A stretch of 64,000 nucleotides of DNA from Ureibacillus sp. FSL W7-1570. Its GTDB lineage: Bacteria; Bacillota; Bacilli; Bacillales_A; Planococcaceae. The position numbers and the translations under genes were made by a program. The notes beneath the pieces were generated by a model. It searched no databases, was not told where the DNA came from, and saw only the letters and a list, made by a program, of their open reading frames with translations. This document shows positions 877 to 63,825 of the stretch, piece after piece. Positions within the stretch are counted from its first letter, which is position 1. Every line of letters begins with the position of its first letter. Location of the stretch: contig NZ_CP151979.1 of the NCBI RefSeq assembly GCF_038593265.1, positions 744,001 to 808,000 of the forward strand. The letters run 5' to 3'.

Positions 877-1830
877 TTACATTTGAATGAACTGTTGTGT
901 CCAATAGTATCCATTTTCAACAAAGCCTACGCCGATATGGGTATAATTCGCATTTAATATATTCGCCCGATGCCCTGGTGAATTCATCCATGCATTTACC
1001 ACCTGTTCCGGTGTTCTTTGGCCTTGGGCAATATTTTCACCAGCCGCTCTGTATTGGATACCGGCTGCACGCATTTGGTCAAACGGGCTGCCGTAAGTGG
1101 GACTTGTATGGGAAAAATAACCTAAATTCGCCATATCCTGTGATTTTGCTTTGGCAACGGCCATTAAAGGATTGTACATCGTAAGAGGTTTCAGACCCGC
1201 TTTGGCCCGTTCCGCATTTGTCAACTCAACGACTTGTCTTTCAAACTCTGAAACTTGGTTGGTAACAGAAGTTGACGGTTTCTCTTTTGTTGCAGGATTT
1301 TCCGATTGCGGCTCTGCATTTTGTGTTGATGGAACTGCAGGTGCCGCTTGTTCCCCACCTTTTGACGGGCTGGATGGATTTCCTTTGAAATAGTGATTGA
1401 TTTGTTTGGACGTTCCGTTATTTGTCCCTTTGCCGCTTTCTGTTTCATCTTTTGCGGCATGTTGAGAGGCATTTGTCTGTCCTGAAGAATTGTCAGCTAT
1501 TGAATTTGCCGGAACTTTGACAGCCGTTTTTTCCTCTTCCTGGGTCGCAGTTGGTTGCTTGAAGGCTTTAAAAGGATCGGAAACAATGCTGTTTACGGTC
1601 TTTTTTGCCAATTCGGCGGCTTGTGTCATATCTTTCAGAAGTTCATCATTTCCTAATGCCCATCGTTCAATTTTTTTGACGATGATTCCGTTATGATTTT
1701 CAAATTTGATGATTTGTATCGTTCCTGGAGGTTGCCCCGTGTTCTCCTTACTGATGGTTGTTGCACTTGCTTGGGGAACCACCGTTGCAAATAAACATAA
1801 TGCACAAAAAGTCATGAACCATTTTTTCAT
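877..1830 (-). CDS. Secreted CAP/SCP-domain protein, YkwD-like
   Basis: The protein is 317 residues and is probably exported. It has a signal peptide of about 23 residues (basic start, hydrophobic core, ending VPQASA). A long polar linker rich in Thr, Ser, Gln, Pro and Lys covers roughly residues 90-195. A C-terminal CAP domain starts near VELTNAERAKAGLKPL. The CAP signature residues are present: FSHTSP, AGENIAQG and NSPGHRANIL, with a C-terminal WTQQF strand. Family members in spore formers include YkwD and SafA-associated proteins, but their biochemical role is poorly defined. The start has a clear AAAGGAGAG ribosome site. It is monocistronic, with its own terminator. The domain call is firm; the function is not. 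Confidence 0.88.
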   Translation of the reverse strand: MKKWFMTFCALCLFATVVPQASATTISKENTGQPPGTIQIIKFENHNGIIVKKIERWALGNDELLKDMTQAAELAKKTVNSIVSDPFKAFKQPTATQEEEKTAVKVPANSIADNSSGQTNASQHAAKDETESGKGTNNGTSKQINHYFKGNPSSPSKGGEQAAPAVPSTQNAEPQSENPATKEKPSTSVTNQVSEFERQVVELTNAERAKAGLKPLTMYNPLMAVAKAKSQDMANLGYFSHTSPTYGSPFDQMRAAGIQYRAAGENIAQGQRTPEQVVNAWMNSPGHRANILNANYTHIGVGFVENGYYWTQQFIQM

Positions 1831-2047
1831 TATTTTTCTCTCCTTTCAATATATCCATGATAAGGGAGAAAACTTGAAAAAAATGGTCCAGCTATTGCCA
1901 AAAACGCCAAATCATTTTCGGCTCAATCATTTAAAGAGTTTTCAGAAGAAAAAAATACAATGTTTTACAACTGAAAAATATATTGCTAACAATAAACTAT
2001 TGACAAAAGTTGAGATTCACAGATATAAGACATTTCCTTTACGAAAT

Positions 2048-2953
2048 TTACAACCGGTTTTCTTCGCCGATTACAGGTACGGACTGTACATTTTCTCCAA
2101 TCATGACGATTTTTGGCGGCATCTTCATATATTCCGGAATCCATTGGACCAAACCGTATGCATATTGGAATAACATCGGGTATTGCATCCCTTCGATGGG
2201 AACAAAGCCTTTCATCCGATAGACCGTTGCCGGAAGCTCTCTTACCCATTCCTCAAATTCTTCCTGGGTGAAACTGCGGTTGAATTCAATCACTCTTGAA
2301 TTCAAGTGCAGATGCCGTCCAATTTGGGCAGGTTGAATTTCTTTATCCCCTTTTGTTGCCTGTAAACTTTTCAAACTTGCCAATGGCACCCGTCCATGAG
2401 TCGTTTGCAGAATGAAGGCGTTCGGATTGAGCCCTTGCAATTCAAATACCACTCTCGCCTTTTCTTCTTCCGTCAACAAATCGCTTTTATTGGCGAGGAT
2501 GAGATGGGCATGGCGGATTTGTTCCAGAAAGAGGCTCCGTGCCTGAGGAGAGAGTTGATCCCGCCCAAGCCAACGTCTGCTGTCCGCAACAGTCACAATC
2601 CCCTTTATGTTCAACTGGTCCGCAAATAAAGGAGAATACACTGCATCCAGCGCTTCCACCGGATGGGCGGCTCCGGTTGTTTCGATGATGAGCACGTCAA
2701 AATCCGCTTCATAAAGCAATGTTTGGATTTGGGCTTCCGTCTTCTCCCCGCCCGTGCAACAAATACAACCGTCAAGGATTTCTTTCAATGGAACATCTTC
2801 ATCCACCGCTTGGGAGTCAAAGGGGATTTCCCCCAGTTCATTCATGATGACAGCCGGCTTCAAACCTTCTTCTTTCAATTGCCTTAATACGTCCACCAGC
2901 ATGGAAGTTTTTCCGCTTCCTAAAAAACCGCTGAATAAATAGACATCTTTCAC
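2048..2953 (-). CDS. CobW/COG0523-family GTPase (putative metal chaperone)
   Basis: This is a 301-residue G3E GTPase of the CobW family, whose members insert or deliver metals such as zinc. The Walker A motif GFLGSGKT is at residues 8-15. The family's metal-binding GCICCT follows near residues 62-67, then IIETTGAAHP (switch II/Walker B region) and the NKSD guanine-specificity motif. The C-terminal CobW_C region ends near EENRL and has no His-rich extension. The start is GTG at 2951-2953 with GGAGG eight bases upstream. Without a recognisable Zur box or partner gene, the metal and client cannot be named. Confidence 0.88.
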   Translation of the reverse strand: MKDVYLFSGFLGSGKTSMLVDVLRQLKEEGLKPAVIMNELGEIPFDSQAVDEDVPLKEILDGCICCTGGEKTEAQIQTLLYEADFDVLIIETTGAAHPVEALDAVYSPLFADQLNIKGIVTVADSRRWLGRDQLSPQARSLFLEQIRHAHLILANKSDLLTEEEKARVVFELQGLNPNAFILQTTHGRVPLASLKSLQATKGDKEIQPAQIGRHLHLNSRVIEFNRSFTQEEFEEWVRELPATVYRMKGFVPIEGMQYPMLFQYAYGLVQWIPEYMKMPPKIVMIGENVQSVPVIGEENRL

Positions 2954-3024
2954 TCATGATTCCTCCAATTCAGAAGAAAGAGCTGACATTCAAAAGTTTG
3001 AATGCAGCCCTCCCATTGCATCAA

Positions 3025-4512
3025 TTATTGATTTTGTAATAACTCTTTCGCTTTTAAAACTTGCGGATCGTCTTTCTGGATTTTTTCACGCAAAGCATCC
3101 ATTAATTTATAGGTTGTATCACCGGAAATTGCACCGGTACGTTCAAGACCATGATCTCTTTGGAATTGAACGACCGCCGATTCAGTTGATGCGTCATAGG
3201 TTTCATCAATTGTGCCCACATTGTATCCAAGGGCATCAAGCATCAATTCCGCTGATTTCACATAGTTGGAAACGACGCCTCTTTTCAATTCCGTATTTGG
3301 ATCAATATAAGTTGCACTGTAATATTCAGGGTATTGCACTTCCACATCCGGTTTGATTCCTTTTTCATGAATCCAATTGCCTTTCGGTGTCAACCATTTG
3401 CCTGTCGTATATTTTAAGTTTGAACCGTCCGGAAGCTGCGTCACCGTTTGGACAGTCCCTTTACCGAAGGATGTCAAACCTACAAGCGTTGCGCCTGCCG
3501 ATTCTTTCAACGCGCCTGCGAGAATTTCCGATGCGGAAGCACTTCCGTTATCAATCAATACTATAATTGGATATTTGTATTTTTTGCCGCCTTCGCTTAA
3601 AACGACTTCCGGTTCCCCTTTGCGGCTCTGCAATTTGACAATCGTTTTTCCTTCATCAATAAATAGGTTGGAAATATCAATGGCCGCATTCAGATAACCG
3701 CCAGGATTTTGGCGAACATCCAAAATGATGCTCTTCATGCCTTCCGATTCGTATTGATCCAAAAGTTTTCTCAATTCGTCGGCTGTATTTTCACTGAATG
3801 ATGTGATTTGAATGTGGGCGATTTTGTCATCCCCCATTTCTCCATAAACCGTTTCAATCGGAATATCATCACGGATAATGGTCATTTCAATTAAATCTTC
3901 GGAATTTCCACGTTTGATCGTCAACGTTACCGGAGTCCCTTTTTTCCCTCGAATCAAGAGCACCGCTTCCGTCGCGCTCATGCCTTGCAAGCTTTGTCCA
4001 TCAACGGAAACAATGATATCTTCCGGCAACAGCCCCGCCTTTTCCGCTGGAGAATTTTTGATAGGAGAAACAACGACAATATTCCCGTTTCGTTCCTGGA
4101 TTTCAGCGCCGATGCCTTGGAAGCTGGATGAGAGTTCGGAGTTGAACTGTTCCGCATCTTCTTTCTCCATATAATCGGAATATGGATCATCAAGGGCTTC
4201 AAACATGCCGTTGATGGCGCCATGGATAATCTTTTTATCGTCGATATCCGTATAATATTTTTCTTTCAATTCATCATAGGCATCATATAGTTGGGAAAAT
4301 TCTTGCCTTTCAGTCGGAACTTCGACCACTTTCTTGTCTCCGAAAGTTAAAGCAAAGATTGTCAAACCGGCAGTAAATAATATAGTAAAGACCATCAGCA
4401 TGATAAAATTGAACGGTTTTAACCGGATATATCGCTTAGCAGGTTTGTTTTGTTCTTGTTGCGGGTCTTTTTCTTGTTGCGTCTCTTTCTCTTGTTGATT
4501 TTGCTCTTCCAT
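3025..4512 (-). CDS. ctpA: S41-family carboxy-terminal processing protease, CtpA type
   Basis: This is a membrane-anchored serine protease. It has a charged Glu/Gln-rich N-terminus, one membrane segment (FNFIMLMVFTILFTAG), a PDZ domain (GIGAEIQERNG to VDGQSLQG) and an S41 catalytic domain. The nucleophile Ser lies in NGSASASEILAGAL and the general-base Lys in LTSFGKGTVQT. A C-terminal peptidoglycan-binding domain (ELMLDALGYNVGTIDETYD onward) completes it. The position next to deoD and yozE matches ctpA rather than ctpB of B. subtilis. I chose the ATG at 4512 because GGTGA precedes it. In-frame ATGs at 4527 and 4557 lie upstream with weaker sites, so the true N-terminus may be up to 15 residues longer. 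Confidence 0.88.
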   Translation of the reverse strand: MEEQNQQEKETQQEKDPQQEQNKPAKRYIRLKPFNFIMLMVFTILFTAGLTIFALTFGDKKVVEVPTERQEFSQLYDAYDELKEKYYTDIDDKKIIHGAINGMFEALDDPYSDYMEKEDAEQFNSELSSSFQGIGAEIQERNGNIVVVSPIKNSPAEKAGLLPEDIIVSVDGQSLQGMSATEAVLLIRGKKGTPVTLTIKRGNSEDLIEMTIIRDDIPIETVYGEMGDDKIAHIQITSFSENTADELRKLLDQYESEGMKSIILDVRQNPGGYLNAAIDISNLFIDEGKTIVKLQSRKGEPEVVLSEGGKKYKYPIIVLIDNGSASASEILAGALKESAGATLVGLTSFGKGTVQTVTQLPDGSNLKYTTGKWLTPKGNWIHEKGIKPDVEVQYPEYYSATYIDPNTELKRGVVSNYVKSAELMLDALGYNVGTIDETYDASTESAVVQFQRDHGLERTGAISGDTTYKLMDALREKIQKDDPQVLKAKELLQNQ

Positions 4513-4589
4513 AAATTTCACCACTCTCATATACACTTTCTTATACGAACATTTCATATTTCATATTAACAGTTTCAAGCCATTACGAA

Positions 4590-4621
4590 AAGAAAAAGAC
4601 TGTCAACATTTTATGACAGTC
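4590..4621 (-). terminator. Terminator of deoD
   Basis: On the minus strand, ACTGTCA and TGACAGT arms enclose a short AT-rich loop. A CTTTTTCTTTT tract follows. Confidence 0.75.
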
Positions 4622-4699
4622 GACATATTTTCGGCTTCGTTGATTGGATGCGGAAAAAGTGGCCAATGATTCTGTCAAACCTGGTTCGTCGGCGAAAAA

Positions 4700-5404
4700 T
4701 CAGGCTTCAATTGCAGCTTCCAAAGCAACATGGATCATGTCATTAAATGTTGTTTGTCTTTCTTCTGCAGTCGTAATTTCACCGGTCAAAATATGATCGG
4801 AAACGGTCAATACAGAAAGCGCTTGTCTGCCGAATTTTGCCGCCAACGTGTAGAGTGCGGCCGTTTCCATTTCCACCGCCAAAACACCGTAACGGGCCAG
4901 TTTTTCGTTTTGATTTTCTTCGGAGTAGAACATATCCGCAGTGAACACATTGCCGACCTTCAAATTCAACCCGGCTTTCAACCCGGCTTGATATGCTTTT
5001 AATAATAAATCAAAGTCGGCTGTTGGTGCATAATCGATTCCACGGAAAATGATTTCATTCATTTTGGAATCGGTGGAAGCGGACTGGGCCAAAATCACAT
5101 CCCGCACTTTCACATCTTTTTGCAAAGCGCCGCAAGTGCCCACCCGGATCAATTTTTTCACACCGTATTCCTGCATCAATTCCGTAATGTAAATGGAAAT
5201 CGATGGGACTCCCATGCCTGTCCCTTGCACGGAAACTTTGTGACCTTTGTACGTTCCCGTGAATCCGAACATATTGCGCACTTCATTATAACAAACCGCG
5301 TCTTCCAGGAAGTTCTCCGCAATATATTTCGCCCGCAGCGGATCTCCGGGAAGCAGCACAATGTCCGCAATTTCACCTTGTTTCGCATTAATATGAATAC
5401 TCAA
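4700..5404 (-). CDS. deoD: Purine-nucleoside phosphorylase DeoD type
   Basis: This enzyme phosphorolyses purine (deoxy)nucleosides to free base and (deoxy)ribose-1-phosphate in purine salvage. The 234-residue length is normal for the hexameric, trimeric-lobed DeoD family. Visible motifs are [14 protein letters not shown] near the start (phosphate binding), RVGTCGAL, the substrate-binding VEMETAALY and the catalytic Asp in [10 protein letters not shown]. The start is TTG at 5402-5404, preceded by a GAGGGA site. It lies between ctpA and yozE as in B. subtilis and has its own terminator. Identity is secure. Confidence 0.95.
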
Positions 5405-5480
5405 TGGCTTTCCCTCATTTCAATGTATTCAAACTAAAATATACGTTTTTTTCAAAAATTATGCAATGATACTTTCCTCT

Positions 5481-5711
5481 TCATTCCCCCAAATTTTCTT
5501 TCGTACGGTAGATTTCCCAAAGTTCGTCGAAAGCGTTTGCCGATAAATCATCATCGGCCAAAGTTTCAATATAACTTGACAGCTCTTCAAAGGAATCGCT
5601 GACTTTGGGAAAACTGTGATCTTTGAACATTTTTTCTGCAAATCGGGTCTTTGGATCGGATAAATCCCCACCGCGAAAAGATAGTGCAAATTGATAAAAA
5701 CTTTGACTCAT
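5481..5711 (-). CDS. yozE: YozE family protein (UPF0346)
   Basis: This is a 76-residue cytosolic protein of the YozE SAM-like fold family. It shows the family signature [11 protein letters not shown] at the start, [19 protein letters not shown] in the middle and a C-terminal AFDELWEIY. The family is small, conserved in Bacillales and of unknown function. A strong TAGGAGGTA site precedes the ATG. The region downstream to deoD is short and AT-rich. Confidence 0.9.
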
Positions 5712-5837
5712 TCGGTACCTCCTACCTATACAAACAAATTATCATTCTATAGGACTTTTTTTACATTTCATAGTAGAATAGATTTCGTGATTATGCTACA
5801 TTGAAAACAGGAATTTTTAAAGGGGATGACTACAAAA

Positions 5838-7634
5838 ATGACTGAAAATGTGCAGACACTGAAAAACAGCTCCAGGAAAAATGTTCAGCCAAAGGGTGGA
5901 AAAACGGAATCGAAAAGTGCTGTGAAAGGCCGTTTTTACCACACGATGCGTGGCAGAATTTTGCTCACCTTTTCGATTCTCATTGCAATCATCGTGATTA
6001 TGCTTATTCTATCCTATATCAACATCACCAGACTACAACAAAGTTTAAATGATTTCTCGGATGTGAACTTGAAAGAACAAAGGGAAATATACCAACTATC
6101 CACCGAGATATCAAATTTGACGATTTATGAACAGGCTTTTCTCATTTATGGCGATGAAGAAAACTTAAATAAATATAGTGAGACGAAACAAACCATTGAT
6201 AAAAAATTGACAGAACTTCTCACCACATTTGAAAACCGTCCTGAAGAAAAAAAACTGGTCGAATACATACATCAATTTTTCCGTACATATTTATACGCTT
6301 CCAGCGGCGTGATTGAGACACGGCAATATTACAGTTATGAACAAGCCGTCCGTTTGATGGAGAGAAGCGAAGGGCAAGCGATCAAAGGAAACATCGAAAA
6401 ACACGCGGATGAATTATTAACATTATTGGAGTCGAAAAATGAACGGACAATCAAGGAAATTGAAACATTTGCCAATTATTCCCGGGTCGCATTCATCGGA
6501 CTGTCCTCTTTGGCATTGGTGATCGCGATCATCTTCAGCTCCCTTCTATTGCGTTCCATCCGCATCAATACGAACAAAATCAATGATTCGATTTTGGATA
6601 TTGCCCAAGCCGGCGGAGATTTGACTCGTCGGGTGAAAGTGGCGACAAAGGATGAATTTGCGGTTATTGCCAACTCAACAAACCTGTTGATTGAATCCAT
6701 ATCAACATTAGTCAGAAAAGTGGCAAACTTGGCTGAGCACGTTTCATCCAGCTCGCAGGAACTGATGGCTTTGGCGGAAGAAAATGCAATCGCCATTGAT
6801 GAAATTGCCAGCTCCACCAATGAAATTGCCAATGATTCCAGCACAACGATCCATCGAATGAATGAAGCGGGAATGAAAATGAAAGCTTTGGAACAGTCGA
6901 TGGTGGAATTGAACCAGGAAGCTTTTGAAGTTCAAAAAGCGGCAAAAGAAATGCAACTGGCCGCACAAAACGGCAGCAAATCGGTACAAGATTCCACAGA
7001 AGTCATACATTTCATTGAAAATACAATGAAAAGCACGACTTCAACGATTGAAACATTGGGACAAAAATCAAAAGATATCAATTCCATCATTTCAACCATC
7101 ACCGCCATCGCGGAGCAGACGGATCTATTGGCGCTGAATGCGGCGATTGAAGCGGCCCGGGCTGGCGAACATGGAAAAGGCTTTGCCGTTGTAAGTAATG
7201 AAGTGAAGAAGTTGGCCATCCAATCCCAGGAAGCGGCAAAACAAGTGGCGGATATCGTCCACTCCATCCAAAATGAAATCGACACCATCGTTTCCCAAAA
7301 TGCAAAAGGGGCTGAATCCATTTCCCGCGGTGTGAAAGTGACGGATGAGACGAACGAAGTATTGAACGATATCCTGACACAAACAAACAAGACAACAACC
7401 ATCATCATTTCAATGGTGGAAAAAATCAGTTCCACTTTGGAAATTGTGAACGAGTTGACCTCATCTTTCAATGAAGTGAATGCCCTCAGCCAAAATACAA
7501 GCCACGCTACGGAAAAATCCGCCCAAGCGGCGATGCAAGGTTCGGCGTCGATGCAGGAAATCAACGCCAGCGCCGTGGAATTGGCGAAACAGGCGGATGA
7601 TTTACGGAATCTTGTGAGTGAATTTAAAATTTAA
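5838..7634 (+). CDS. Methyl-accepting chemotaxis protein
   Basis: This is a transmembrane chemoreceptor of about 598 residues. TM1 ([20 protein letters not shown]) is near residues 42-62. An extracytoplasmic helical sensor region of roughly 150 residues follows, then TM2 ([20 protein letters not shown]) near 217-237. A HAMP segment comes next ([22 protein letters not shown]), then a long coiled-coil signalling domain. Its hairpin tip, [19 protein letters not shown], is the conserved CheA/CheW contact. There is no recognised ligand-binding motif, so the signal is unknown. The ATG at 5838 was preferred because AAAGGGGATG lies at optimal distance; an ATG at 5826 overlaps that site. A strong terminator follows. 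Confidence 0.93.
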
Positions 7635-7652
7635 TCCGCCTGCCAACATAAA

Positions 7653-7690
7653 AAATTCGCTATTTTCTTCAGAAATAGCGAATTTTTTTT
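7653..7690 (+). terminator. Terminator of the chemoreceptor gene
   Basis: AAATTCGCTATTT and AAATAGCGAATTT arms form a long stem with a 7-base loop, followed by a T tract. Confidence 0.9.
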
Positions 7691-7740
7691 ATTTTTGGAT
7701 AGACTTTATATACAACAGGAAAATGTGGGAGATGGAAAAG

Positions 7741-8847
7741 GTGAGCAATTCAATAAAAATTGGGATTTTGCACATCATTTTTATCTGTATGACTTGTATC
7801 GGTTTAAAAAATCATATAACCGTCATTTCACCGGTTTTGGAAACGGCGAAACGGGATGGCTGGATCACTGTCCTTTTGGCCGGCATTGCCATATTTCCAT
7901 GGATCTTATGGATTCTTTATATACAAAAAAAATCCCGGATGAAACCGTTGAAAACTTGGCTGACTGAAAGAATCGGCAAAGTGGGGGCAAAAATCCTATT
8001 ATTCGGCCTTGTCATTTTTGCCTATTTCCTTGCCGCTTTCACTTTGAGAGAAACCATTCTTTGGATATCGTCCACCTTTTTAGAAAACACTCCCATCACT
8101 TTTTTGATTTTGATTTATATCATCGTATGTTTCCTGCTGGTTTCAACCAACATTCAAACAATCGTCACTGTGAATGCCTTCATACTCTTTTTCGTCATTA
8201 TATTCGGTTTTTACGCAGCTTTCACCAATATGCAAGTGAAAAATTATGAACTTCTGCTTCCCATGCTGGAACACGGGTTGCGTCCAGTGTTGATATCCAT
8301 GATTTTCCCCGCTTCAGGATTCATAGAATTGTTTTTGTTGCTCTTTTTGCAGCATTATTTTAAAAAACCTTTGAAATGGTATCATCTGGGTATTATCATG
8401 TTTTGTTTCATCGGTTTGACGATGGGGCCATTGATTGGCGCCATCGTGGAATTCGGGCCGGAAGAGGCTGCAAAGCAACATTATCCCGCTTATGAAGAAT
8501 GGACATTGGTGTCCTTTGGCCGCTTCATTGAGCATATGGATTTTTTATCCGTTTATCAGTGGTTGGCAGGAACGTTCATTCGTGTCGGAATCATATTATT
8601 CATCGTTTGCGACATACTAAATTTCACAGGGCAGCCAAAGAAAATTTGGCTATATATGGTGCCGCCCTTCGTGATATTGAATTTCTCCCTGTTTCTTATT
8701 CAGGATGAAAATTTCCTGACATGGAACAATTATTATTTTCTGGAAATAACATTTCTGTTCTTTTTCCTGCTATCGATCATACTCATTTTGATCAGCATGT
8801 TGGATAAAAAAACTGTACGTCGCGACACCCAGCAAAATACGAAATGA
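7741..8847 (+). CDS. GerAB-type germinant receptor permease subunit
   Basis: This is a polytopic inner-membrane protein of about 368 residues from the spore-germination GerAB/APC-like transporter family. It has about ten hydrophobic segments and the family's early I-H-H-x-I-F-like start (IGILHIIFICMTCIGLKNHI). B subunits are thought to bind the germinant in GerA receptors. The start is taken as GTG 7741 because GGGAG lies nine bases upstream. The frame stays open further back to 7618, which overlaps the chemoreceptor's 3-prime end and terminator and is unlikely. It is the first gene of a B-A-C ordered operon, with the A gene 15 bases downstream. Confidence 0.88.
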   Translation: MSNSIKIGILHIIFICMTCIGLKNHITVISPVLETAKRDGWITVLLAGIAIFPWILWILYIQKKSRMKPLKTWLTERIGKVGAKILLFGLVIFAYFLAAFTLRETILWISSTFLENTPITFLILIYIIVCFLLVSTNIQTIVTVNAFILFFVIIFGFYAAFTNMQVKNYELLLPMLEHGLRPVLISMIFPASGFIELFLLLFLQHYFKKPLKWYHLGIIMFCFIGLTMGPLIGAIVEFGPEEAAKQHYPAYEEWTLVSFGRFIEHMDFLSVYQWLAGTFIRVGIILFIVCDILNFTGQPKKIWLYMVPPFVILNFSLFLIQDENFLTWNNYYFLEITFLFFFLLSIILILISMLDKKTVRRDTQQNTK

Positions 8848-18799: not shown

Positions 18800-19450
18800 T
18801 TGGGCTGTTTGTTCAATTGGTGCGGATGTTTGCCCGTTTTGTGCGGATAAGTATCCATTTGGTGCGGATACATCCTCGTTTTGTGCGGATGGCCATCTTT
18901 TTTGTGCGTTTGCCACCTTGTTTTGTGCGGATAGCCATCTTTTTTGTGCGTTTGCCACCTTGTTTTGTGCGGATGGCCATCTTTTTTGTGCGTTTGCCAC
19001 CTTGTTTTGTGCGGATGGCCATCCTTTTTGTGCGTTTGCCACCTTGTTTTGTGCGGATGGCCATCCTTTTTGTGCGTTTGCCACCTTGTTTTGTGCAGAT
19101 GGCCATCCTTTTTGTGCGTTTGCCACCTTGTTTTGTGCGGATGGCCATCTTTTTTGTGCGTTTGCCACCTTGTTTTGTGCGGATGGCCATCCTTTTTGTG
19201 CGTTTGCCACCTTGTTTTGTGCGGATGGCCATCTTTTTTGTGCGTTTGCCACCTTGTTTTGTGCGGATGGCCATCCTTTTTGTGCGTTTGCCACCTTGTT
19301 TTGTGCAGATGGCCATCCTTTTTGTGCGTTTGCCACCTTGTTTTGTGCGGATGGCCATCTTTTTTGTGCGTTTGCCACCTTGTTTTGTGCGGATGGCCAT
19401 CCTTTTCGTGCGGATAGCACCTTCATTCGCTCGGATAACACCACCGCTCG
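18800..19450. repeat. 21/42-bp tandem repeat array B inside the leucine operon
   Basis: A 42-bp unit is repeated in strict register, with GCCACC at 18912, 18954 and every 42 bases to 19374 (12 copies). Each unit is two 21-bp halves. On the minus strand one half starts ATCCGCACAAAAC and the other AAACGCACAAAAAAG. Diverged 21-bp monomers extend the array at both ends (GTGCGGAT cores from about 18815; GCTCGGAT near 19432). Internal variation is almost only KK/KR-type single bases, so expansion is recent. Long open frames on both strands arise because 42 is divisible by three; none has a start site or family match. Confidence 0.93.
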
Positions 19451-19538
19451 TGCACATCCCGCATAAGGCACTACCAAATCCACACCCTGCGTCCCAAACG
19501 CCCCTATTCTCTTTCCACTTCAAATTGCTTCATTTCCA

Positions 19539-27234: not shown

Positions 27235-27300
27235 AGAAATGAATAGACTTTCGGTCTTTATCAGTATGGAAATTAAATATCAACATGAAAAAGCCATTAA

Positions 27301-27381
27301 CGATGTCCTACTCTCGCGGAGGGCCCCCCAACTACCATCGGCGCGAACTCCGAAGCACGTTGACCGGCTACTCTCGTCAGC
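27301..27381 (-). pseudogene. 5S rRNA-like degenerate copy 1
   Basis: The minus-strand block from GCGCCGATGGTAGTTGGGGG to GCGAGAGTAGGA matches the 3-prime half of the 5S gene at 28081-28196. The 5-prime half is shortened and diverged (GGTCA and CGGAGTT remain in order). It is about 81 bases against 116 for the intact gene. Confidence 0.75.
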
Positions 27382-27538
27382 TTTGGTAGTCTGGTGTTTA
27401 TGGGACTCGATTAATCCGTTTTGTGATTTTCTTGTATCCACCATATACCAACTATTTGTGTGAATTAAATTCATCTTCCTGTTAAAAATAGACTTTCTGT
27501 CTTTGTCTATGTGGAATTTCAATATGAAAAAATATTAA

Positions 27539-27619
27539 CGACGTCCTACTCTCGCGGAGGGACCCCCAACTACCATCGGCGCGAACTCCGAAGCACGTTG
27601 ACCGGCTACTCTCGTCAGC
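27539..27619 (-). pseudogene. 5S rRNA-like degenerate copy 2
   Basis: Same structure as copy 1, one repeat period away. The terminal bases TGACG and CGTCG can still pair as a short remnant of 5S helix I. Confidence 0.75.
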
Positions 27620-27779
27620 TTTGGTGATCTGGTGTTTATAGGACTCGATTAATCCGTTTTGTGATTTTCTTGTATCTACCAAATACCAGCTATTTGTATG
27701 AATTAAATTCATCTTCCTGTTAAAAATAGACTTTTCTGTCTTTGTCTGTGTGGAATTTCAATATGAAAAATACTTTAGA

Positions 27780-27859
27780 GACATCCTACTCTCGCAGACG
27801 GCCCCCCAACTACCATCGGCGCGAACTCCGAAGTACGTTGACCGGCTACTCTCGTCAGC
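27780..27859 (-). pseudogene. 5S rRNA-like degenerate copy 3
   Basis: The same 5S-like block is closest to the true 5S gene. Here it is preceded on the minus strand by a GC-rich stretch (27862-28010) not present before copies 1 and 2. Confidence 0.72.
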
Positions 27860-28043
27860 TTCGGCGGTCCGATGCTCACGTACCCGACGCTTGCGCTCCG
27901 GTTCCTCGCTTCCTTGATCTTCTTGGTCCCCGTGCTTCTCGTCTGCTTCTAATCGGTTTGCCGCTTCACTTTTTGGTTCCTGCTTCTGTATCGCGCCGAG
28001 CTGACCTCCGGTCTTTGGTAGTTGGGGGCTTAATTTTGGGCAA
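27860..28043. other. GC-rich linker between 5S terminator and 5S-like array
   Basis: This spacer is markedly richer in G+C than the AT-rich spacers of the tandem units. An open frame crosses it on the minus strand into copy 3, but it reads through the 5S-like block and shows no ribosome site or protein signature, so I do not call a gene. Confidence 0.45.
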
Positions 28044-28077: not shown

Positions 28078-28080
28078 GCG

Positions 28081-28196
28081 AAGCGACGTCCTACTCTCGC
28101 AGGGGGAAGCCCCCAACTACCATCGGCGCTAAAGAGCTTAACTTCCGTGTTCGGTATGGGAACGGGTGTGACCTCTTTGCCATCGTCACTTCACCA
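28081..28196 (-). rRNA. rrf: 5S ribosomal RNA
   Basis: The minus strand shows the Bacillus 5S core: GAGGTCACACCCGTTCCCAT, then CGAACACGGAAGTTAAGCTC and GCGCCGATGGTAGTTGGGGG. The ends GGTGAAGTGACG and CGTCGCTTCGC pair as helix I. Boundaries are estimated to a few bases. Confidence 0.95.
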
Positions 28197-41169: not shown

Positions 41170-41550
41170 ACCTATCTGAGCGAGGTTGTGCTTTATCCAA
41201 GCACGTCAAATATCTATACGGACGAGTTGAGGGGTTATCCGAGCAAGATGGGATGTTATCCGAGCAAGCGGACACTTTATCCGAGCAAGATGGGATGTTA
41301 TCCGAGCAAGCGGACACTTTATCCGAGCAAGATGGGATGTTTACGAGCAAGCGGACACTTTATCCGAGCAAGCGGGATAGCCATCCGAGCAAGTCGGTGC
41401 TCTATTGTCGCATGTTGTCCCTTTATCTGCATATGGGATGGGATAAATCAACCGCTCCATGAAAGTTGTATCTGCGCAAAACTTGCTAGCTTACAAAAAA
41501 GTTGTATCTGCACTAAAAGCCTATCCATCCGCACCAAAACAGTGTTCATT
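41170..41550. repeat. 21-bp tandem repeat array C
   Basis: On the plus strand, ATCCGAGCAAG units recur every 21 bases from about 41240 to 41390. They alternate two tails (ATGGGATGTT and CGGACACTTT), so the local unit is 42 bp. Diverged monomers flank them: ATCTGAGCGAG and ATCCAAGCACG on the left; ATCTGCGCAAAA, ATCTGCACTAAAA and ATCCGCACCAAAA on the right. The right flank connects this array to arrays B and D. It lies between convergent ecsC-like and ypiP genes. Open frames through it have no family match. Confidence 0.88.
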
Positions 41551-51642: not shown

Positions 51643-52230
51643 GTGTATTCCTCCTAATAATTTATTTTTCCTATTGAAATACTAGTGATTATGGTTAAAA
51701 AAAATTCGAACCGTTAAAAAGAAGTTGCTGCCATGAACAAACTTTAGTGCTTGATCGATCACATGAACGCCCGGCTTATCAAACAATCAATTGCATACAG
51801 AAGCTTCCATATTCATCTAATTACTATTAATTTCTTCAGTTGTTTAATATGCTAAAGGATTGTAATTATCTTAAACAATTTTTCTTAAAATTTCAATATT
51901 TCAATTAATTTATTTTTTTAATTTTACTAATAAAGTAAATAATTCTTATTTTATTACTTTGATTATATGGGTATTAAGGTTGATAAATTTGGGGAAATTC
52001 ATCTATTGCGTTTATGACCACAATATTCTTAACCTTGTCTTTAATTTTAATTCTTTCCTTAATCTGCATCCGCTTATTTAATCGTTCAACATATGGACCA
52101 GCTTTTATGAGGTTCGTGTTCCCAGGATCAGTACTTTGCCTCCAGCTTCCTTCAGATTCCGCTTCTCTCATGTCTACCATCGTGGTTTAGTACTTGCATC
52201 TTAAAGTTCAGGCACAAATCAGACATGTAT
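51643..52230. other. AT-rich intergenic region upstream of sfnG
   Basis: The region is very AT-rich around 51830-51970. A 68-codon frame on the minus strand (51974-52180) has no ribosome site and no recognisable sequence, so I do not call it. I looked for an S-box or T-box leader upstream of sfnG and saw none. Confidence 0.55.
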
Positions 52231-55399: not shown

Positions 55400-56935
55400 T
55401 AAAGGAGGGGATCATTTTCTTCCGCTCTAAAAAAGGAACTATACGCACCAATTGGGATTTTATCTGCACGAAAAGGGTCTCTATATGCAAGAATTTGGAT
55501 TCTATCCGCACCAAAGGGGTTACCATACGCACGAATCGATACTTTATCCGAACCAAATGCTGTGCCATCCGCACCAATTAAGACACTATCCGCACCAAAG
55601 GGGTTACCATACGCACGAATCGATACTTTATCCGAACTAAATGCTGTACCATCCGCACCAATTAAGACACTATCCGCACCAAAGGGGTTACCATACGCAC
55701 GAATCGATACTTTATCCGAACTAAATGCTGTACCATCCGCACCAATTAAGACACTATCCGCACCAAAGAGGTTATCAAACGCACGAATCGATACTTTATC
55801 CGAACTAAATGCTGTACCATCCGCACCAAAGGGGTTACCATACGCACGAATCGATACTTTATCCGAACCAAATGCTGTGCCATCCGCACCAATTAAGACA
55901 CTATCCGCACCAAAGGGGTTATCAAACGCACGAATCGATACTTTATCCGAACTAAATGCTGTACCATCCGCACCAATTAAGACACTATCCGCACCAAAGG
56001 GGTTACCATACGCACGAATCGATACTTTATCCGAACCAAATGCTGTGCCATCCGCACCAATTAAGACACTATCCGCACCAAAGGGGTTATCAAACGCACG
56101 AATCGATACTTTATCCGAACTAAATGCTGTACCATCCGCACCAATTAAGACACTATCCGCACCAAAGGGGTTACCATACGCACGAATCGATACTTTATCC
56201 GAACCAAATGCTGTGCCATCCGCACCAATTAAGACACTATCCGCACCAAAGGGGTTATCAAACGCACGAATCGATACTTTATCCGAACTAAATGCTGTAC
56301 CATCCGCACCAATTAAGACACTATCCGCACCAAAGAGGTTATCAAACGCACGAATTGATACTTTATCCGAACCAAATGCTGTACCATCCGCACCAATTAA
56401 GACACTATCCGCACCAAAGAGGTTACCATACGCACGAATCGATACTTTATCCGAACTAAATGCTGTGCCATCCGCACCAATTAAGACACCATCCGCACCA
56501 AAGAGGTTACCATACGCACGAATCGATACTTTATCCGAACTAAATGCTGTACCATCCGCACCAATTAAGACACTATCCGCACCAAAGAGGTTATCAAACG
56601 CACGAATTGATACTTTATCCGAACCAAATGCTGTGCCATCCGCACCAATTAAGACACTATCCGCACCAAAGAGGTTACCATACGCACGAATCGATACTTT
56701 ATCCGAACTAAATGCTGTGCCATCCGCACCAATTAAGACACCATCCGCACCAAAGAGGTTACCATACGCACGAATCGATACTTTATCCGAACCAAATGCT
56801 GTACCATCCGCACCAATTAAGACACTATCCGCACCAAAGGGGTTATCAAACGCACGAATCGATACTTTATCCGAACCAAATGCTGTACCATCCGCACCAA
56901 TTAAGTTTATATACGCACGAATGAAGGGAACTCTA
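55400..56935. repeat. Very long 21/84-bp minisatellite, array D
   Basis: About 73 monomers of 21 bp occupy some 1.5 kb. Plus-strand monomers start with ATCCGCACCAA, ATACGCACGAA or ATCCGAACTAA/ATCCGAACCAA plus about ten bases. Four types recur in fixed order as an 84-bp unit, with 16 counted units after an initial partial one. The fourth unit lacks one monomer (63 bp). Variant bases show duplications of 168 bp (units 4-5, 6-7, 8-9) and of 252 bp (units 10-12, 13-15). The left edge (55400-55560) holds diverged monomers. An uninterrupted 458-codon frame crosses it, but other frames are also open and none has a start site or known family, so no gene is called. Confidence 0.95.
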
Positions 56936-56978
56936 TAATTTAAACTGCCTTCCCCTCATCCAAATCCATTGAAAACGA

Positions 56979-57017
56979 AAAAGGCCACCCGGAAAACTGG
57001 CCGTTTCCAGGTAGCCG
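56979..57017 (-). terminator. Terminator of the gluconate dehydrogenase-tatA operon
   Basis: On the minus strand, GGCTACCTGGAAAC and TTTTCCGGGTGGCC arms (with mismatches) are followed by TTTTTC, directly before array D. Confidence 0.78.
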
Positions 57018-63704: not shown

Positions 63705-63710
63705 AAATAA

Positions 63711-63825
63711 TGGAATGAAAAAACACAATCCGGTTGGTAGTCCGGATGCATCAATCGCCATATTGATGTCAGTAACCTTCCCTTCCTCGGGTTGTCCATC
63801 ATTCCATGATTCATTTTTTAGAGGA
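63711..63825 (+). promoter_or_regulatory. yjdF-type riboswitch
   Basis: The closing stem is TGGAATGA (63711-63718) with TCATTCCA (63799-63806). Inside are a CCGG/CCGG hairpin around TTGGTAGT (63730-63745) and a CATCAAT/ATTGATG hairpin (about 63749-63769), then conserved single strands including CAGTAACCTTCC and CGGGTTGTCC. The element lies directly before a yjdF gene, the place where the yjdF motif RNA (which binds azaaromatic compounds) is known. The closing stem ends shortly before the GAGGAGGG ribosome site, so it may regulate translation. Confidence 0.82.

Follow-up and report, generated by a model that had tools for sequence, protein, structure and literature searches.

Results

The window, a stretch of 64,000 nucleotides, covers positions 744001-808000 of the single 3,280,775-base contig of Ureibacillus sp. 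FSL W7-1570. Since dnaA is located at 2.41 Mb, the window lies near the point opposite the origin, in agreement with the sampled GC skew. TRF, array detection and monomer labelling together delimit a 1.5-kb array of 71 core-bearing 21-bp monomers at 55420-56931 (+ strand). The open reading frames (ORFs) flanking this focal array match the diphthamide synthase, GMC oxidoreductase and gluconate dehydrogenase subunit families. For the GMC oxidoreductase, the closest named relative is that of Ureibacillus terrenus ATCC BAA-384 (98%, locus L051). A 110-aa ORF by the array gave a sub-threshold HTH_17 match. To the right of the array, a hairpin with a T tail resembles an intrinsic terminator (56983-57016, - strand); the count of terminator-like sites around the array is not above chance (3 versus 2.7 expected).

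TRF reported periods of 21, 42, 84, 147 and 252 within 55439-56905. When labelled singly, the monomers fell into four types that recur in fixed order as an 84-bp unit. U. terrenus (L051) and a second species, G011 (L309), have near-identical counterparts of three single boundary monomers (55441-55503) at their orthologous sites. Further along the + strand are an 84-bp unit without its fourth (d) monomer (55756-55818), three copies of a 168-bp higher-order unit (55819-56322) and two copies of a 252-bp higher-order unit (56323-56826). The preliminary description had read the array in just this way, with a 21-bp period, four monomer types in fixed order, 168-bp and 252-bp secondary duplications and the loss of one monomer, and all of these points stand. 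The A/T profile of the array also contains a weak 10.5-bp harmonic (P = 0.02 before correction for six harmonics).

Two other clear arrays lie in the window: 31 monomers at 18807-19457 (- strand), mostly with a CCGCAC or ACGCAC core, and eight monomers at 41216-41403 (+ strand), mostly with a CCGAGC core. Core-like monomers at 41464-41547 (+ strand) form a small degenerate remnant, the cores of which were joined to the 41216 array and for which TRF gave a period of 18 (41462-41519). Three further 21-bp arrays had been counted here at first; two were recovered, plus this remnant, and the third was not. Elsewhere in the window, a truncated, 5S-rRNA-like 238-bp tandem repeat of 2.5 copies (27276-27861) lies downstream of an intact 5S gene (28078-28193), a yjdF (azaaromatic) riboswitch match falls at 63707-63815, and a group II intron fragment matched weakly, barely over the gathering score, at 52049-52173.

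Arrays of the same kind recur elsewhere in the genome, as the preliminary description had anticipated. Using a 21-position matrix and a core score, with the same detector for this genome and for G011, we found 23 core-bearing arrays in 1,221,009 bases of this genome and none in the same bases reversed. A paired-core pattern allowing at most two mismatches gave 497+175 matches in this genome, against 13+12 for the backwards pattern. The focal array is not the largest, being exceeded by those at 2965646-2967577 (92 monomers), 3116833-3118558 (76) and 3109834-3111387 (74). By arithmetic from 17 arrays, located in the window or in regions retrieved because of their arrays, plus 6 in 960,000 bases sampled regardless of arrays, we estimate ~36 arrays genome-wide from this incomplete census. 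With model R1, 150 of 1448 candidates in this genome were scored. Core-blind TRF returned 29 long intergenic loci whose periods are multiples of 21 in the sequence scanned from this genome, 26 with the core and 3 without. One of these three, together with two loci of other periods, belongs to a sister family that has ATCCGCCA as its core, steps of mostly 21 bp and larger units of ~103 bp (L050 from 11482, L261 from 6202, L047 from 3409). Separately, ~30-bp repeats with a period of 66-70, CRISPR-like by eye, occur in this genome and in G011 (L283 near 7361, 7830 and 19227; L324 near 899-8080).

Common to the arrays is a core of ~13 bp, YATCCGMRCnARA, followed by a loose spacer of ~8-9 bp. In a profile of 18 arrays given equal weight, position 1 is A (0.98), position 8 C (0.99), position 10 A (0.98) and position 21 a pyrimidine (0.97), positions 14-17 are mostly purine, and positions 9, 13, 18 and 19 are free; the search used positions 1-8 and not the remaining ones. 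Spacers differ across the 23 arrays, and the identity of consensus monomers between arrays was 0.66 in the core and 0.38 in the tail, with some arrays out of register in this count. As the choice of core and tail could bias the contrast between them, every in-phase monomer was taken, core-bearing or not. The core was less variable than the spacer in 22/23 arrays of this genome (Wilcoxon, P = 4.8e-7), a test that is not blind, because the positions were fixed after the profile of 18 of these 23 arrays had been seen and the arrays were found by core score. The same held for 24 of the 25 G011 arrays that have at least five distinct monomers, of 27 in all (P = 1.2e-7). The one exception in this genome (0.64 in the core versus 0.58 in the tail) is probably the array at 3116833, which has several phases. 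Steps between monomers are nearly all exact: 534/547 steps of 18-23 bp are 21 bp, a hand sum over at most the five commonest steps of each array. A second count, 678/688, was set aside because the script steps 21 by default. G161, from the same genus, is less strict, with 16 steps of 21 and 13 of 20.

The sites of the arrays are inherited between this genome and G011, for which 282 reciprocal-best proteins have a median identity of 91%. Starting from intergenic spaces of at least 150 bp in this genome, we sought the orthologous gene ends in the available G011 sequence. An array stood at the orthologous place for 12/15 array sites, compared with 12/149 array-free sites (P = 1.9e-9); without the G011 regions fetched for their arrays the figures were 7/9 versus 7/130 (P = 6.6e-7), and under a stricter count in which both flanking genes are adjacent, 4/4 versus 1/73. 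Relative orientation agrees at 11 of the 12 shared sites, and the exception rests on one flank. At 3/15 array sites an array was not found in G011. Of six small G011 windows placed by prediction, two had an array and four did not; for three of these four, the anchors behind the prediction were at a distance of 24-38 kb. Outside the 15 sites, windows L350, L351 and L354, likewise at predicted sites, contained no array.

At the focal site, the 71 monomers of this genome correspond to 8 in U. terrenus and 6 in G011. The first four full monomers of G011 are almost identical to the leftmost ones of the array here. The 8 monomers of U. terrenus, with a single 84-bp unit, come from a draft assembly in which the array may have been collapsed, whereas the G011 assembly consists of one contig. 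Elsewhere, shared sites have spacers that differ in part or entirely between this genome and G011. The array is longer in this genome at 11 of the 12 shared sites and equal at one, although the sites in this genome were largely found from long arrays.

Genes were called with a simple purpose-made caller rather than a published one, and this caller drops ORFs that lie mostly in arrays; by its calls, none of the 23 arrays in this genome is inside a gene. Classed by neighbouring genes, 22 arrays comprised 11 convergent, 11 tandem and 0 divergent contexts, versus 44 convergent, 226 tandem and 68 divergent among 338 array-free spaces (convergent excess, 11/22 versus 44/338, P = 7.6e-5). This convergent preference was not replicated in G011 (4/22), where contexts without a distance cut were 15 tandem, 4 convergent and 3 divergent of 22. 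The three divergent calls each have a neighbour 933 to 5448 bp off, so genes were probably missed there. A divergent context was found for none of the 35 arrays with both neighbours within 700 bp (20 in this genome and 15 in G011), which are not independent, as the species share sites. Between tandem genes, cores run in both directions without preference (with/against genes, 6/5 in this genome and 9/6 in G011), and replication-strand bias is absent, with 12 leading and 11 lagging arrays when the origin is placed at dnaA. On the chromosome, the core is on the plus strand in 17 and on the minus strand in 6 of the 23 arrays, with no link to replication direction.

Beyond this genome, model R1 matched 16/250 genomes of the family at E <= 1e-4 (9 of the same genus, this one included, and 7 of other genera), 17/261 in the order and 3/348 in the class, these last all of the same genus; misses are likely, since only 15-21 first-look candidates were scored per genome. 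The reversed control model R2 matched 1/250 family genomes, from another genus. That match is a 21-bp-phased array (G090 C2:75560-75701), so unrelated 21-bp arrays exist in the family. A 499-base piece of the array had no match in plasmid and phage collections, and a mobile-element reading was rejected on this basis. In other genera, among 80 loci scanned, the same GMC oxidoreductase gene is followed within ~1.7 kb by 51-bp or 21/42-bp arrays (L069 7536-8341; L075 6869-7264; L083 6840-7031; L123 6784-6877). A core common to other families, sought in eight consensus units, was rejected as not robust: P values for core likeness were 0.005 and 0.12 for the Oceanobacillus units (L083), 0.014 for the Paenibacillus unit, and 0.68 and 0.58 for Neobacillus (L123), next to 0.001 for the U. 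terrenus control.

Discussion

The preliminary description knew of no named element that fits the focal array, but a class of such repeats has been published. Subirana and Messeguer (2021; PMC8161180) describe tandem repeats of constant size (20-21 nt) and variable sequence in Bacillus, and cite an earlier paper (J. Bacteriol. 2020). The focal array belongs to this class. The class is characterized by at least four tandem repeats of 20-21 nt, several sequence families per genome and a short common signal; here, we found 71 monomers with 534/547 short steps of 21, differing spacers in 23 arrays together with the ATCCGCCA sister family, and the core. The arrays are also non-coding in the same way, with 0/23 inside a called gene and frames that carry stops. 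They differ in occurring in another genus and in having a different, longer signal than the TCGCGG given for B. weihaiensis in PMC8161180. Inherited sites, gene-end location and the contrast between core and spacer are not discussed in the main text of that paper, from which the words intergenic, convergent and orientation are absent; it offers a nucleoid protein or a small RNA as ideas. A search of the open-access literature turned up no article describing arrays of this type from Ureibacillus, and none on the inheritance of their sites.

On balance, the arrays are probably helically phased binding sites for a DNA-binding protein whose existence we infer. A kept core, a drifting spacer, a two-turn step and fixed rows are what would be expected if every monomer carried one site and the sites shared a single helical face. 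Phased binding sites had been proposed in the preliminary description, and the core constraint, the step of about two turns and the inherited sites agree with that part of the proposal; binding itself we infer from this pattern. The focal array would then be one member, expanded in this lineage, of a family of intergenic 21-bp arrays that extends across the genus. In each monomer, one putative binding site, the core, would be followed by the loose spacer, and since two helical turns span 21 bp, the sites would all lie on the same side of the DNA. A sequence-specific protein may bind cooperatively along the segment and coat or wrap it. The arrays stay at inherited intergenic positions, downstream of one or both neighbouring genes, where two promoters would not be covered; they change length fast by duplication of whole units, and may have a role in chromosome organisation, segregation or silencing. 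Several observations count against binding. Length variation among close relatives (71, 8 and 6 monomers) is not predicted by a length-dependent function, and the loose period of G161, the unreplicated convergent preference and the array-less G011 sites (3/15 plus L350, L351 and L354) point the same way.

Plasmid iterons and ParR-type partition centromeres are direct repeats of about two turns, with one site per repeat and cooperative wrapping. The focal array resembles them in its direct repeats, which fall within their 20-22 bp; however, no rep or par gene was seen beside it, and the Ureibacillus arrays are chromosomal and occupy dozens of sites. The combination of constant and variable sequence also recalls CRISPR, but the array repeats are contiguous, and their spacers recur in fixed order rather than being unique.

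A possible explanation, to which we give less credence, is that the arrays are tolerated or self-amplifying minisatellites, lengthened through slippage or unequal exchange at places where this harms no promoter, and passed on by descent. Fast length change (71, 8 and 6 monomers at one site), the nested 84-, 168- and 252-bp duplications, the 0/35 divergent contexts among close-neighbour arrays and the longer arrays of this genome at 11/12 shared sites (equal at one, with sites largely taken from long arrays) all favour it. The inherited sites and orientation are expected under a minisatellite too, and therefore do not decide between it and binding. Under pure neutrality, variation should be even across the 21 positions of an array, which is not so in this genome or in G011; this position-by-position contrast between core and spacer speaks against a purely neutral satellite. 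The core might instead persist by driving its own amplification, perhaps as a pause, nick or recombination site, and not for the cell's use. Core constraint does not separate self-amplification from binding, as both need something that reads the core.

It is improbable that the phased arrays are topological elements that gyrase, or an enzyme like it, wraps at gene ends and that take up positive supercoils. REP/BIME elements are intergenic, lie downstream of genes and form arrays, and the BIME sites of E. coli are wrapped by gyrase and absorb positive supercoils. The gene-end location, the convergent excess in this genome and the weak 10.5-bp A/T harmonic would suit such a role, but the excess is absent in G011, the arrays contain no palindrome and, with both strands folded, lack the palindromic fold of REP/BIME elements, and gyrase is not known to need a 13-bp sequence core.

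Highly improbable, in our view, is that the arrays are transcribed and act as RNA, either as a sponge or as the structured repeat that the preliminary description had put forward beside binding sites. The 52-nt repeats of B. coagulans are transcribed according to PMC8161180. A 336-nt piece of the array, however, folded worse than 100/100 dinucleotide shuffles on both strands, a harsh control in that shuffling destroys the repeat, and no Rfam family matched. Promoter-like sites were not above shuffles, and tandem contexts lack a preferred core direction (6/5 and 9/6), which also argues against a transcript.

That the arrays titrate DnaA, with the core as a degenerate DnaA box, is scarcely credible. 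The core is similar to TTATCCACA with one change, and TATCCACAC occurs 39 times in the arrays; a literature search on the letters of the relaxed DnaA-box definition found no paper. However, the dnaA loci of both species each carry eight exact TTATCCACA and no TTATNCGCA, and 15,017 array bases contain TTATCCACA 7 times and TTATCCGCA once, versus 131 CATCCGCAC. DnaA-box clusters are short related sites grouped away from the origin, and the array core differs from the native consensus at one base in most monomers. PF00308 matches, dnaA included, number 25 in this genome and 13 in G011, and we take the extra ones to be probably IstB-like insertion-sequence genes.

A heptapeptide-repeat protein encoded by the focal array has negligible probability, in keeping with the initial view that a coding role was unlikely: one frame is open for 458 codons (55562-56938), Pfam ASRT barely passes its cut-off over the whole ORF (25.9 versus 25 bits, no single stretch passing) and a crude count gave fewer stops than expected (+1, 28 versus 63; -0, 21 versus 37), but the column shuffle behind that count did not re-phase the arrays, the deficit is gone with phase-correct monomers taken one per array (+1, 0.74 versus 0.88; -0, 0.63 versus 0.87), stops occur in every frame across 638 monomers (17 in the best + frame, 12 in the best - frame), the start codon of the ORF is inside the array and no PDB match was obtained at E 0.01.

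If the arrays are indeed phased binding sites, they might belong to an undescribed chromosome-wide organising or segregation system, in which a polymerising protein would take one site every two turns at about three dozen inherited gene-end positions, with array length setting its loading; we offer this only tentatively and consider it rather doubtful. In draft assemblies, long arrays will probably be missing or truncated. To the published class, the Ureibacillus arrays add a defined core, a contrast between core and spacer that two species reproduce, and sites retained from one species to the other. A defined core and persistent sites provide exact DNA probes and sites for deletion, and thus make the function of these repeats testable.
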